Assembly: GCA_958295785.1 (NCBI GenBank)
Contig: OY282377.1
Coordinates: 2,494,394 to 2,558,393, forward strand
DNA: 64,000 nt
Direction of reading: 5' to 3'
DNA from: an uncultured Latescibacterota bacterium
Lineage (GTDB): Bacteria > Latescibacterota > UBA2968
The translations under genes were made by a program, and so were the position numbers. This document shows positions 6,813 through 60,314 of this stretch, in pieces. Position 1 is the first letter of the stretch. Each line of letters begins with the position of its first letter. The notes below the pieces were generated by a model. That model worked only from the letters and a program-made list of their open reading frames with translations. It made no database searches and had not been told where the DNA came from.

Positions 6813-7256
6813 TAATACCAAATTGATTTTCTGTTGTCCTAATGTGATGCGATATGCTACCTGCAAATGATTCCCTTGACCTTACATAGTCATTCAGAGA
6901 AGCCATGGCAACCAGGCCATCACAAAAAACCATCAGATCATGCCATCACGCACAGCGCGCAAGGCCGTCTCGCAACGAACCTCTATTTTGCAACCCACTT
7001 GGCAGGCCAACGCATGTCGTGCTGTTACAAAAGCGATTTGCGCTGTGCAAGCCCCTCGGCGTCTGAGAGCGGCATTTTTTGCTTCCTTTTTTTTGCTGCT
7101 GAAAAAAAGGAAGTCGCCGAAGGCATTGAAAGCAACCCACCTGGAGGCAGAACCAAACGCTTGAGACAAGCAACGCATGATCCTTACAGAAGTTTGTTCC
7201 TCATTCCTCCCTGATGGGAGGCAGGATATGGACAACTTAAAATCAAATTGGTATTA
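6813..7256. mobile_element. 444-bp inverted-repeat-ended element (MITE-like), copy A
   Basis: It begins TAATACCAAATTGATTTT and ends with the inverted counterpart AAAATCAAATTGGTATTA; 24 of the terminal 27 bases match. It has no convincing gene. A second, diverged copy lies at 59872-60314. Inside is a hairpin (7082-7113, CTTCC..GGAAG with an eight-T/seven-A inner stem). In the second copy two base pairs of this stem have changed on both sides. Other conserved stretches are GCGCAAGGCCGTCTCGCAAC and CTCCCTGATGGGAGGCAGGA, which can also form hairpins. It may be a non-autonomous transposable element. Confidence 0.75.
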
Positions 7257-48784: not shown

Positions 48785-48962
48785 GTTTTTCCCTCATCGC
48801 AAAATATCGCTGTTGTCCCTGTCTTTGAGCACTTGGGCTTGCTGCTAAATTAAGCAAAATCATCGCGGCTTCCCCTCGTCAGAGAGATTGACAAGGGGCG
48901 CGTTGACGCCTAATATTGTCGCGGTTTTGCGCGGGATCACATCTCTAACCAAAGGAATTTCG

Positions 48963-50309
48963 ATGCCCGAATCTCCCAATGTCATCCTCGTCTTTGGCGA
49001 TCAGTGGCGCGCACAGGCGTTTGGTTATGCCGGCAACACCTGCGTGCAAACGCCCAACATCGACCGCCTCGCGTCTCAAAGCATCAATGCCTCGCACGCG
49101 GTTTCCGGGTGCTCGGTCTGCTGCCCGGCGCGTGCGTCTCTGCTCACGGGGCAATACCCCCTCACGCACGGCGTTTTTGTCAACGATGTCCACCTAAGCG
49201 ACAGGGCCATCAGCCTTGCACACGCATTCAAAAGCGCGGGCTACGACACCGCTTATGTCGGCAAATGGCACGTCAATGCAAATGGCCGATCCCAGTATAT
49301 CCCGCCCGAAAATCGGCAGGGCTTTGACTACTGGAAAGTGCGGGAATGCACGCACAACTACAACCACTCCTTTTACTATGCCAATGACTCAGACGAAAAG
49401 CGCGTCTGGGGAGGATACGACGCCATCGCGCAGACGCGGGATGTGCGAGACTACATTCAAAATCACAACGCGGAAAACCCCTTCCTCCTCGTGCTCTCGT
49501 GGGGGCCACCGCACGCGCCTTACGAAACCGCGCCCGAAAAATACCGCGCCATGTACCGCGCAGAAGACGTACCGCTGCGCCCCAATGTGCCGGCACAAGC
49601 CGAAGCAAACGCCCGAAAATGGATCGCGGGATACTACGGCCATTGCACCGCGCTCGACGACTGCATGGGCGATCTGCTCCAAACCCTCGACGACACGGGC
49701 AGGGCGGACAATACCCTCGTGCTCTTTTTTTTGGATCACGGCGATATGCTCGGCTCGCAGGGCAGCGCGAAAAAGCAACAGCCTTGGGACGAGTCCATTC
49801 GCATCCCCTTCTTGTTGCGTTGGCCCGCGCAATTTGGAACTGAAGGCCGCGAAATTGATGACCCCATTGACATACCCGACATCATGCCCACGCTTTTGGG
49901 CCTGTGCGGGATCGACATACCCGACACGGTTGAAGGCTTGGATTATTCGGCCTATCTCAACGGGGGCGACAATCCCTCTGATGGCGCGGCCCTTTTGCAA
50001 TGCCCGCAACCCTTTGGGCAGTGGACGCGCGCACAAGGGGGGCGCGAATATCGCGGGCTTCGCACCCGGCAATACACGTATGTTCGCACCCTGGATGGCC
50101 CGTGGTTGCTCTACGACAACAACGCCGATCCCTTCCAGTTGAACAATCTCATCGACAACCCCAACTCTGCGGATTTGCGCCGCGAATTGGACAACGGGTT
50201 GCAACGCCGCCTCAATGCACAAAACGACGCCTTTCTCCCCGGCGCGGCCTATATTGAACAGTGGGGATATACGGTCAATGAAACGGGCACAGTGCCTTAT
50301 GCGAATTAG
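48963..50309 (+). CDS. Sulfatase, copy 1
   Basis: A 448-residue type I sulfatase. The formylglycine motif C-x-P-x-R is CCPAR at residues 53-57, followed by ASLLTGQYP. Metal ligands are in FGDQWRAQ near 11, KWH near 101, and the DHGDMLG block near 258. Residue 257, just before that Asp, is Leu here but Ser in copy 2, where the family norm is SDHGD. Two other differences are Gly150 and Asp244. No signal peptide is present, so it would act in the cytoplasm. The ATG at 48963 follows AAAGGAA. No formylglycine-generating enzyme gene is nearby. Confidence 0.93.
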   Translation: MPESPNVILVFGDQWRAQAFGYAGNTCVQTPNIDRLASQSINASHAVSGCSVCCPARASLLTGQYPLTHGVFVNDVHLSDRAISLAHAFKSAGYDTAYVGKWHVNANGRSQYIPPENRQGFDYWKVRECTHNYNHSFYYANDSDEKRVWGGYDAIAQTRDVRDYIQNHNAENPFLLVLSWGPPHAPYETAPEKYRAMYRAEDVPLRPNVPAQAEANARKWIAGYYGHCTALDDCMGDLLQTLDDTGRADNTLVLFFLDHGDMLGSQGSAKKQQPWDESIRIPFLLRWPAQFGTEGREIDDPIDIPDIMPTLLGLCGIDIPDTVEGLDYSAYLNGGDNPSDGAALLQCPQPFGQWTRAQGGREYRGLRTRQYTYVRTLDGPWLLYDNNADPFQLNNLIDNPNSADLRRELDNGLQRRLNAQNDAFLPGAAYIEQWGYTVNETGTVPYAN

Positions 50310-52626: not shown

Positions 52627-52837
52627 GGGACATTCTCTTTTCGTCTTGGTGATGGTTTCAGAAGTTCATTTAGACTTGGGCTTGTTGCTAAATTAAGCAA
52701 AATCATCGCGGTGGGGCAAGCCCCAATTCTGGTCGCATCGCGGCTTCCCCTCGTCAGAGAGATTGACAAGGGGCGCGTTGACGCCTAATATTGTCGCGGT
52801 TTTGCGCGGGATCACATCTCTAACCAAAGGAATTTCG

Positions 52838-54184
52838 ATGCCCGAATCTCCCAATGTCATCCTCGTCTTTGGCGATCAGTGGCGCGCACAGGCGTTTGGT
52901 TATGCCGGCAACACCTGCGTGCAAACGCCCAACATCGACCGCCTCGCGTCTCAAAGCATCAATGCCTCGCACGCGGTTTCCGGGTGCTCGGTCTGTTGCC
53001 CGGCGCGTGCGTCTCTGCTCACGGGGCAATACCCCCTCACGCACGGCGTTTTTGTCAACGATGTCCACCTAAGCGACAGGGCCATCAGCCTTGCACACGC
53101 ATTCAAAAGCGCGGGCTACGACACCGCTTATGTCGGCAAATGGCACGTCAATGCAAATGGCCGATCCCAGTATATCCCGCCCGAAAATCGGCAGGGCTTT
53201 GACTACTGGAAAGTGCGGGAATGCACGCACAACTACAACCACTCCTTTTACTATGCCAATGACTCAGACGAAAAGCGCGTCTGGGAAGGATACGACGCCA
53301 TTGCGCAGACGCGGGATGTGCGAGACTACATTCAAAATCACAACGCGGAAAACCCCTTCCTCCTCGTGCTCTCGTGGGGGCCACCGCACGCGCCTTACGA
53401 AACCGCGCCCGAAAAATATCGCGCCATGTACCGCGCAGAAGACGTACCGCTGCGCCCCAATGTGCCGGCACAAGCCGAAGCAAACGCCCGAAAATGGATC
53501 GCGGGATACTACGGCCATTGCACCGCGCTCGACGACTGCATGGGCGATCTGCTCCAAACCCTCGACAACACGGGCAGGGCGGACAATACCCTCGTGCTCT
53601 TTTTTTCGGATCACGGCGATATGCTCGGCTCGCAGGGCAGCGCGAAAAAGCAACAGCCTTGGGACGAGTCCATTCGCATCCCCTTCTTGTTGCGTTGGCC
53701 CGCGCAATTTGGAACTGAAGGCCGCGAAATTGATGACCCCATTGACATACCCGACATCATGCCCACGCTTTTGGGCCTGTGTGGGATCGACATACCCGAC
53801 ACGGTTGAAGGCTTGGATTATTCGGCCTATCTCAACGGGGGCGACAATCCCTCTGATGGCGCGGCCCTTTTGCAATGCCCGCAGCCTTTTGGGCAGTGGA
53901 CGCGCGCACAAGGGGGGCGCGAATATCGCGGGCTTCGCACCCGGCAATACACGTATGTTCGCACCCTGGATGGCCCGTGGTTGCTCTACGACAACAACGC
54001 CGATCCCTTCCAGTTGAACAATCTCATCGACAACCCCAACTCTGCGGATTTGCGCCGCGAATTGGACAACGGGTTGCAACGCCGCCTCAATGCACAAAAC
54101 GACGCCTTTCTCCCCGGCGCGGCCTATATTGAACAGTGGGGATATACGGTCAATGAAACGGGCACAGTGCCTTATGCGAATTAG
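52838..54184 (+). CDS. Sulfatase, copy 2
   Basis: 448 residues, differing from copy 1 at Glu150, Asn244 and Ser257. The last gives the regular SDHGDMLG metal site, so this copy is the more normal one. The formylglycine Cys53 motif CCPAR is intact. Sulfate esters of sugars or small molecules are likely substrates, but none can be named. Beyond it lie DUF2237, an aldo/keto reductase and an Ldh2-type dehydrogenase in the same direction. Confidence 0.93.
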   Translation: MPESPNVILVFGDQWRAQAFGYAGNTCVQTPNIDRLASQSINASHAVSGCSVCCPARASLLTGQYPLTHGVFVNDVHLSDRAISLAHAFKSAGYDTAYVGKWHVNANGRSQYIPPENRQGFDYWKVRECTHNYNHSFYYANDSDEKRVWEGYDAIAQTRDVRDYIQNHNAENPFLLVLSWGPPHAPYETAPEKYRAMYRAEDVPLRPNVPAQAEANARKWIAGYYGHCTALDDCMGDLLQTLDNTGRADNTLVLFFSDHGDMLGSQGSAKKQQPWDESIRIPFLLRWPAQFGTEGREIDDPIDIPDIMPTLLGLCGIDIPDTVEGLDYSAYLNGGDNPSDGAALLQCPQPFGQWTRAQGGREYRGLRTRQYTYVRTLDGPWLLYDNNADPFQLNNLIDNPNSADLRRELDNGLQRRLNAQNDAFLPGAAYIEQWGYTVNETGTVPYAN

Positions 54185-59520: not shown

Positions 59521-59784
59521 TTATATGACCCTCGTGTAGCGACGTTCTAAAATTCTACCCCCCTCGCTTCTGCTCAACGTTAGGATATTACCTCTTATGT
59601 GGTACTTATAGGTATAAGTAGTGCCATCTTCATTAGTCATGGTAAGTACATCGTCCGCAATGCTCCACTGTCCTCTTTTACTTTCATCCAAAGGAGTGTA
59701 AGTGTATTTATCGTATGAGTTGTCCGCGTGGAAGTGAAGTGAATGGGGCTGAATATAAGAGTCCCTAACAAAAAGCGTTGACAT
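59521..59784 (-). pseudogene. 5'-truncated lipocalin-like gene, re-started inside a MITE
   Basis: 87 residues; only the part from about residue 10 (YIQPHSLHFHADNSYDKYTY) is from the host gene. LDESKRGQWSIADDVLTMTN followed by EDGTTYTYKYHIRGNILTLS resembles small lipocalin-like domains. The first nine codons (MSTLFVRDS) come from the end of the 114-bp IS427-derived MITE inserted at 59758. The original N-terminus, probably with a signal peptide, is lost. Whether the product is made is unknown. Confidence 0.5.
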
Positions 59785-59871
59785 GGATTTGTGAGAGGCC
59801 GACTTTGAGGCGTTCCATCGGGTGTTCGCTCATCTGTTTCAGACGCTTGATTTCTTTATGTTAGGGACTCT
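59758..59871. mobile_element. 114-bp MITE derived from the IS427-type element
   Basis: The ends AGAGTCCCTAACA (59758-59770) and TGTTAGGGACTCT (59859-59871) match the IS ends with two to three changes. On the minus strand the inside is the left ~60 bp of the IS (TAAAGAAATCAAGCGTCTGA with AACAG) joined to its right ~45 bp (GGCCTCTCACAAATCCATGT with CAACGCTTT). The trinucleotide TAA flanks it on both sides if the outer A/T bases are counted as target. The IS at 56881 could move it. Confidence 0.88.
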
Positions 59872-60314
59872 AAATTGTTTTTCAGTTGACCTGATGTGAT
59901 GCGCTATGTTGCCAGCAAAGATTCCCTTGACGTTCCGCAGTCATTCAAAGAAGCCATGGCAACCAGGCCATCCCAAAAGACCATCAGATAAAACCATCGC
60001 GCACAGCGCGCAAGGCCGTCTCGCAACCCACGGCGATTATGTAGCCAACCTTGCAGGCCGACGCATGTCGTTCTGTTACAAAAGCGGTTTGCGCTGTGCC
60101 AGCCTCTCGGCGCATGAGAGCGGCATTTTTTGCCTACTTTTTTTTGCTGTTGAAAAAAAGTAGGTCGCCGAAGGCATCGAAGGCAACCCACCAGGAGGCA
60201 GAACCAAACGCTTGAGACAAGCAACCCATGATCTCTGAGGAACGTCTGTTCCTCATTCCTCATTCCTCCCTGATGGGAGGCAGGATACGGAAAAAGAAAA
60301 ATCAAATTGGTATA
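59872..60314. mobile_element. 444-bp inverted-repeat-ended element, copy B
   Basis: Diverged copy of 6813-7256, about 443 bp. The right end ATCAAATTGGTATA is intact. The left end is cut to AAATTG, because the 114-bp MITE abuts it. The inner hairpin CCTAC (60133-60137) / GTAGG (60160-60164) differs from copy A (CTTCC/GGAAG) at two base pairs, both with pairing kept. Confidence 0.75.

Follow-up and report, generated by a model that had tools for sequence, protein, structure and literature searches.

Among the described bacterial repeats, two kinds come closest to the element reported here: miniature inverted-repeat transposable elements (MITEs) of the IS5-like kind, which are noncoding, reach a high copy number, and have terminal inverted repeats (TIRs) and a TNA target duplication, and the dispersed intergenic hairpins of the REP/RAYT and IS200/IS605 systems. 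The window, by which we mean the whole 64,000-nucleotide stretch analyzed here (contig OY282377.1 of the Latescibacterota assembly GCA_958295785.1, positions 2,494,394 to 2,558,393, forward strand), contains two copies of a repeat that shares all of these features. Unlike the IS5-like MITEs, however, its interior is mostly a structured, RNA-like element that occurs independently in relatives, and no parental insertion sequence (IS) was found in the loci read; unlike REP/RAYT and IS200/IS605, it has a conserved pseudoknot as well as TIRs and target duplications on the MITE copies, in a genome with no Y1 transposase. The repeat is a nonautonomous DNA transposon (MITE) of Candidatus Latescibacterota, copies of which were collected from stretches of the genome. 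With a probability of roughly 0.74, we propose that this MITE has multiplied an older element, carried as a passenger, which likely encodes an RNA of ~170 nt with a triple-helix pseudoknot at its 3′ end.

The predicted pseudoknot and third strand

The two window copies, described as diverged in the first-pass annotation, are ~85% identical (alignment over 8-442), and the paired change reported in their internal hairpin can be read directly, namely CTTCC/GGAAG in copy 1 and CCTAC/GTAGG in copy 2. The arms make a perfect 12-bp helix in both copies, with CTTCCTTTTTTT (7082-7093) and AAAAAAAGGAAG (7102-7113) in copy 1 and CCTACTTTTTTT (60133-60144) and AAAAAAAGTAGG (60153-60164) in copy 2. Inversion of the hairpin loop had been named as an event that could explain the change; the loop has the same orientation in both copies, and with one inverted loop among all the copies (L218), inversion was rejected as the source of the arm change.

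The hairpin is embedded in a larger module on the plus strand. In copy 1, a terminator-like hairpin A (CTC...GAG; 7055-7069) precedes a U6 tract, and its end overlaps the segment x (GCGGCA; 7069-7074), the 5′ strand of pseudoknot stem 1; this is followed by L1 (TTTTTTG; 7075-7081), the 5′ arm of the reported hairpin (S2a), the loop segment x′ (TGCTGC; 7094-7099), which pairs with x as the 3′ strand of stem 1, and the 3′ arm (S2b). After stem 2 comes a tail, CGCCGAAGGCA (7115-7125), with a short GCC-GAA-GGC hairpin, which is conserved also in relatives and in the Parcubacteria and Saprospirales contigs. Copy 2 is arranged in the same way, with hairpin A at 60106-60120, x (GCGGCA) at 60120-60125, L1 (TTTTTTG) at 60126-60132, and x′ (TGCTGT) at 60145-60150. 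The order x - L1 - S2a - x′ - S2b is that of an H-type pseudoknot, a predicted fold that is backed by covariation, and the helix between the loop and the arm of hairpin A is a new point beyond the hairpin first reported.

In relatives, the arms of the hairpin were Watson-Crick perfect at 24 of 25 loci, with the alleles CCTAC, CTTAC, CCGAC, and CCTCC, and the alleles CATAC and GTTAC were further found in a genome from another genus of the same family (G014). When 24 modules were aligned over hairpin A, the reported hairpin, and the loop-arm helix, 99.0% of the cells were paired; ten pairs had changes on both sides compared with a shuffled mean of 4.2 (0/500), the covariation score was 0.217 compared with 0.068 in the shuffled data (0/500), and the pairing signal collapsed when the partners were slid by 1-3 columns. 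Three of the four pairs in hairpin A had changed on both sides across the relatives. The pairing of the hairpin loop with the 3′ arm of hairpin A scored 5.51 against 3.22 ± 0.24 after shuffling (0/2000), and the test performed on G014 and the other phyla alone also gave 0/2000. The last pair of this loop-arm helix, between the nucleotide 3′ of GGC and the one 5′ of GCTG, swaps among A-U, C-G, and U-A, and other variants of the helix are GCGAC/GTCGT, GAGAC/GTCTC, and GCGCCC/GGGCGC. A G-U pair in the pseudoknot stem was, furthermore, kept in 24 of the 24 aligned sequences; because such a pair is natural in RNA but a mismatch in DNA, RNA is favored over DNA, and of the two options left by the first-pass annotation, folded RNA or single-stranded DNA, the latter is the less favored.

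U·A-U and C+·G-C Hoogsteen triples require a pyrimidine tract to match a purine strand in parallel, which ordinary pairing does not. Within the genus, a U6 L1 goes with seven U-A pairs at the top of stem 2. The lengths of L1 and of the inner part of stem 2 move together (4/5, 5/6, 6/7, and 7/8); the number of U residues in L1 equals the number of inner pairs minus 1 in 37 of 45 sequences as parsed, and in 43 of 45 once six parser picks of a shorter stem were set to the standard register. In order-level relatives, a C in L1 sits at a G of the purine strand of stem 2 in the same reading direction, as in TTTCTTTTT with AAAGAAAAA, TTCTTTTTC with AAGAAAAAG, TTCTTTTG with AAGAAAAG, TTTTCTG with AAAAGAG, and TCTTTTG with AGAAAAG. 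L1 and S2b matched exactly in parallel in 23 of 29 sequences and exactly in antiparallel in none of the 29, and the L1-S2b rho values were 0.93 and 0.87 for the two flanks. The parallel match in the order-level relatives amounted to 6.54 versus 4.92 ± 0.24 in shuffled data (0/2000), and the antiparallel match to 4.57. We hence predict that L1 is able to occupy the major groove of the hairpin as a third strand that runs parallel to the purine strand S2b and forms U·A-U and C+·G-C triples.

The 5′ part of the element is closed by a helix, P1, of 8-11 pairs, which encloses mostly 79-84 nt in the genus, in type X, and in family f2. Its strands are GCACAGCGC (6950-6958) and GCGCTGTGC (7040-7048) in copy 1 and pair likewise at 60001-60009 and 60091-60099 in copy 2, with a CCGTC motif 3′ of the 5′ strand. 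The sequence of P1 is swapped wholesale between genera (GCACAGCGC/GCGCTGTGC, GATTTTCCGCA/TGCGGAAAATC, and GCTTTTCCGCG/CGCGGAAAAGC); because its pairing is conserved while its sequence is replaced, an RNA of ~170 nt is the simplest reading, and the most likely product of the element is a small plus-strand RNA of roughly this length. The module was above the gathering threshold of no family in Rfam 15, and a description of it was not found in the literature. LOOT RNA, a candidate named for Latescibacteria and OD1, gave no match even at lax thresholds. The RNA-like part would thus appear to be a new family with a fold of known type. At one locus (L359, 1805-1849), a match to Acido-Lenti-1 (RF01687) scored 29.5 bits, below the cut-off of 37; it lies ~250 nt upstream of the module and does not overlap it.

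The middle of the element (query ~70-323) was found without TIRs in all ten of the other genus genomes, with 2-12 scored matches each, and the core is accordingly present in all 11 genomes of the genus; among 60 genomes tried, DNA matches outside the genus were obtained only in G014. The copies in relatives are intergenic, some at loci common to several species, and 384 kb of a congener (G008) contain no MITE end sequence. Of 47 class genomes searched with a covariance model, 23 contain the module; one of them (G021) has 89 matches, and family f4 has essentially none. G014 has 66 candidates, in which the 3′ part stands behind two different 5′ domains; an exact-pattern scan found the module in a Parcubacteria metagenome-assembled genome (MAG; three contigs), a Saprospirales MAG, and one viral contig, all preceded by unrelated 5′ sequences. 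The reuse of the 3′ part as a module behind different 5′ domains is shown by these comparisons, and the hairpin and core are judged from their distribution to be much older than the MITE. The folded structure for which selection had been proposed does covary across the genus and the class, but as a property of the older element that is carried and not of the MITE. No conserved neighboring gene was found, as clusters of flanking open reading frames (ORFs) represented mainly the element itself and orthologous loci, and a cis partner gene was rejected on this ground. As to the type Y 5′ domain in G014 (L170-L199), it is G/U-rich (GTGCAGTTGGTG...GGGAACTGCRC) and unlike the 5′ domain of the window; about a dozen copies could be aligned, which use the same 3′ module and have no Rfam match.

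The transposon and its copies

The element proper in copy 1 spans 6816-7253 (438 bp, plus strand) instead of the 6813-7256 first proposed, the outer 3 bp on each side belonging to the TNA target duplication, which is imperfect here (TAA at 6813-6815 and TTA at 7254-7256). The MITE ends read TACCAAWTTGA...TCAAWTTGGTA (TIR, TACCAAWTTGATTTT). In copy 1, the left TIR (TACCAAATTGATTTT core, imperfect to 27 nt) lies at 6816-6839 on the plus strand and the right TIR at 7230-7253 on the minus strand. TIRs of ~27 bp had been reported for the element; this holds for copy 1 (27 nt, 89% complementary) but not for copy 2 (59872-60312, plus strand), which retains the right TIR, AAAATCAAATTGGTA (60298-60312, minus strand), followed by TAA, and has lost the left one because a second, unrelated small mobile element adjoins there. 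This second element (112-114 bp, AGAGTCCCTAAC...GTTAGGGACTCT, inverted ends; 59758-59871) has copies elsewhere: it also adjoins or replaces a MITE end in several other copies (L023, L042, L053, and L057), and 13 copies were seen in 464 kb of the window's genome, while its end is absent from 384 kb of G008.

Among 50 copies with both ends, the 3-bp flanks were identical in 33, and TNA was found on the left in 44 and on the right in 47; the MITE is hence a transposon with 3-bp TNA duplications, since the flanking triplets match and fit TNA. A two-base TA duplication as in IS630/mariner was rejected, with 5 of 64 two-base matches compared with 33 of 50 three-base TNA matches. Genome-wide, 311 candidates were obtained with the full element as a query, of which 40 were scored copies; a 21-mer from the right part gave 158 matches (none in the control), and perfect 16-mer TIR ends numbered 103 (none in the reversed control). 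In total, 132 distinct MITE stretches were recovered. Protein coding by the 115-aa and 189-aa ORFs of the element was rejected, as neither matched a Pfam family. The repeat thus combines TIRs, a target duplication, no coding capacity, and a high copy number. Shortened derivatives also occur, namely a TIR-only form of 76 bp (L293, 1041-1117) and one of 189 bp (L059), and one copy has a 1.2-kb insertion (TIR GGGAATTATATAYTTGCCAACCCT) within the A-tract of the hairpin (L310, ~372-2075). The right-part 21-mer is found in 57 forward and 101 reverse orientations, and the longer matches within 0-400 kb of G000 (L100-L119) are all on the minus strand; this orientation bias may follow replication.

No transposase gene with the MITE ends was found among 30 IS630-type and 30 DDE_Tnp_1 loci or between perfect-TIR pairs, and an autonomous partner with these ends, for which a search had been advised, is absent from every stretch of the genome read. 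IS630 was rejected as the partner (35 DDE_3 matches), as the ends differ in the 30 loci read; among the 150 scored DDE_Tnp_1 loci, the reading covered 30, in which MITE ends flank no transposase. A perfect-TIR pair 2.0 kb apart at 4.05 Mb was also dismissed, because it consists of a 76-bp deletion derivative and a full MITE with ordinary ORFs between them. The 3-bp TNA duplication is a mark of the IS5 family, and we nonetheless do not file the MITE as IS5, no IS with matching ends having appeared among the loci read. The autonomous partner may reside in unread parts of the genome or have been lost. REP/RAYT identity was rejected, as the Y1 transposase (PF01797) had no match in the genome while control genomes were positive.

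Additional copies had been suggested as a check of the covariation, and with more than 130 of them, the arms proved to be linked far above background: the arm association reached r2 = 0.47, compared with a mean of 0.034 for other pairs of sites at distances of 16-40 bp. In 87 parsed MITE copies, 41 had Watson-Crick perfect arms, compared with 22 (maximum 33) when the right arms were shuffled, and with G-U allowed, 55 were fully paired compared with 29.3 ± 3.9 (maximum 42). Perfect arms were nonetheless less frequent here (41/87) than in the relatives (24/25; Fisher p ~5e-6, to be taken as indicative, since the copies are related), and the structural constraint appears visibly relaxed in the MITE copies. 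A frequent mismatch, right GTCGG with left CCTAC, recurs in 15 copies, so that imperfect copies also multiply. Because the constraint is weaker and mismatched copies multiply, the covariation in the MITE would derive from several sources whose arms were well paired and would be maintained only in part; correction of one arm by the other may add to the association.

Two further features were noted apart from the MITE. The window has two ORFs, both of 473 aa (48888-50309 and 52763-54184), whose internal ORF patterns are the same, which suggests a local duplication; Pfam identifies the first as a sulfatase. Also, G000 carries a long CRISPR-like array (L102, 40010-42550) with 34 repeats of TTTGGAAGTACTACCCGCCTACTGGGGTATTGAAAC at ~76-bp spacing.

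Alternative explanations

Several observations count against a ~170-nt RNA with a triple helix. Related copies are not independent events, so the shuffle counts overstate the significance; several L1/S2b parses were made by a mechanical regular expression, with a few wrong-strand picks removed by hand. In some sequences, G-C pairs interrupt the run of U-A pairs (TTTTTG/CAAAAA), which would disrupt the triplex at one step, and L1 covers 6-9 positions, yet stem 2 has 12-13 bp. Most copies are without a clear 3′ terminator after the module. At orthologous loci, furthermore, the core is 81-87% identical while the flanks are ~88-93% identical (three pairs with well-aligned flanks, L091/L137, L094/L099, and L095/L096), and a functional RNA would not usually behave in this way unless the copies convert each other; gene conversion or exchange among copies is perhaps the cause of this faster divergence. 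Hairpin A with its U6 resembles a terminator and would end the RNA before stem 2, and it is indeed conceivable that the two form an intrinsic terminator, with stem 2 as part of a bidirectional or attenuating one. The GC hairpin followed by TTTTTT in the genus and the covariation of both hairpin A and stem 2 would fit, but we regard this explanation as unlikely: the intrinsic terminator sequence that fits in g1 fits poorly with the C-containing tracts of other families, the tract of order-level relatives having C where the purine strand dictates (TTCTTTTTC) and making a poor U-tract, and the upstream P1 domain is conserved, and at least one copy (L138) lies between divergent genes. We also doubt that the structure acts at the level of DNA, folded as single strands or as H-DNA, for example as a hairpin recognized by a transposase or recombinase. 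The mirror-symmetric polypyrimidine tracts (L1 and S2a) suit H-DNA, the element is dispersed in many copies, and an IS has inserted into the A-tract in L310; nonetheless, the G-U pair of the pseudoknot stem is kept in all 24 sequences, the genome has no Y1 transposase, and the copies in relatives are without TIRs and stand at shared intergenic loci.

A passive MITE, in which one arm would be overwritten from the other by replication template switching at quasi-palindromes and the structure would not be selected, is improbable. Such correction does predict that arms remain associated (r2 0.47) even though 46 of 87 are not Watson-Crick perfect, but it cannot yield covariation between the loop and the upstream arm or the parallel match of pyrimidines to purines; the P1 arms are ~80 nt apart, and the signal is present in relatives without the MITE. 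The first-pass annotation had also suggested an RNA-guided element, and a dispersed, structured, RNA-like element of ~170 nt might bring to mind an omegaRNA, a bridge RNA, or a similar RNA mobilized in trans, as pseudoknots occur in guide scaffolds of this type. We consider this highly improbable, because no conserved gene stands beside the copies, no Rfam match is above threshold, the genome has no Y1 transposase, no partner appeared in the stretches read, and the 3′ module ends in a conserved tail instead of a variable guide. The earlier interpretation as a whole is therefore partly supported.

In the explanation that we prefer, the MITE-carried RNA element, a MITE with TACCAAWTTGATTTT ends and 3-bp TNA targets, which in this genome of Latescibacterota has risen to far more than one hundred copies, carries a copy of an older dispersed element, found without TIRs in the rest of the genus and diverged across much of the class. 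The RNA would comprise a closed domain (P1, ~80 nt inside), the short hairpin A, and a 3′ H-type pseudoknot, in which the reported hairpin would be stem 2 and its loop would form stem 1 with the 3′ arm of hairpin A; the pyrimidine tract L1 would follow the purine strand of stem 2 in parallel through the major groove and form U·A-U and C+·G-C triples there. We infer transcription of the plus strand and formation of the triplex, and the role might be to cap or stabilize the 3′ region of the RNA or to bind a protein. In the MITE copies, the structure would be mostly a passenger under weakened constraint. We lean slightly toward regarding the element as an undescribed class of dispersed bacterial RNA, present in much of Latescibacterota and, as a matching 3′ module, in one Parcubacteria and one Saprospirales MAG, with a telomerase-like triplex pseudoknot and covarying triples, portable behind unrelated 5′ domains and multiplied by a MITE in one species.

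Comparison with triple-helix RNAs

Sequence data seldom reveal covariation of base triples, as distinct from base pairs; in this element, C in the third strand tracks G in the purine strand across genera, which would make a triple-helix RNA of bacteria directly testable. The natural variants by the hundreds, including decaying MITE copies, are a ready mutational series, and the repeat would be a case of a MITE that has multiplied a structured RNA element instead of simply the remains of an IS. The closest architecture is that of the triplex pseudoknot in telomerase RNA, with which the element shares the order stem 1, U-rich loop, stem 2 (U-A pairs), stem 1′, and stem 2′, the loop running parallel to the A strand, and loop and stem lengths that covary. 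The element differs in being bacterial and multicopy, in its position 3′ of the closed P1 domain, in having no template, and in up to nine predicted triples with C+·G-C steps; the likeness is one of architecture and not of homology to a database entry. Triplexes of the expression and nuclear retention element (ENE)/MALAT1 type, with ENEs being known also in the RNAs of plant and fungal transposons, likewise combine a U-rich tract with an A-rich strand in a major-groove triplex near the 3′ end of an RNA, but an ENE clamps the poly(A) tail through an internal loop, whereas the A strand here is encoded in the pseudoknot stem. Should the module prove to be a stability cap at the 3′ end, bacteria would have their own equivalent of the triplexes in ENEs and telomerase RNA.
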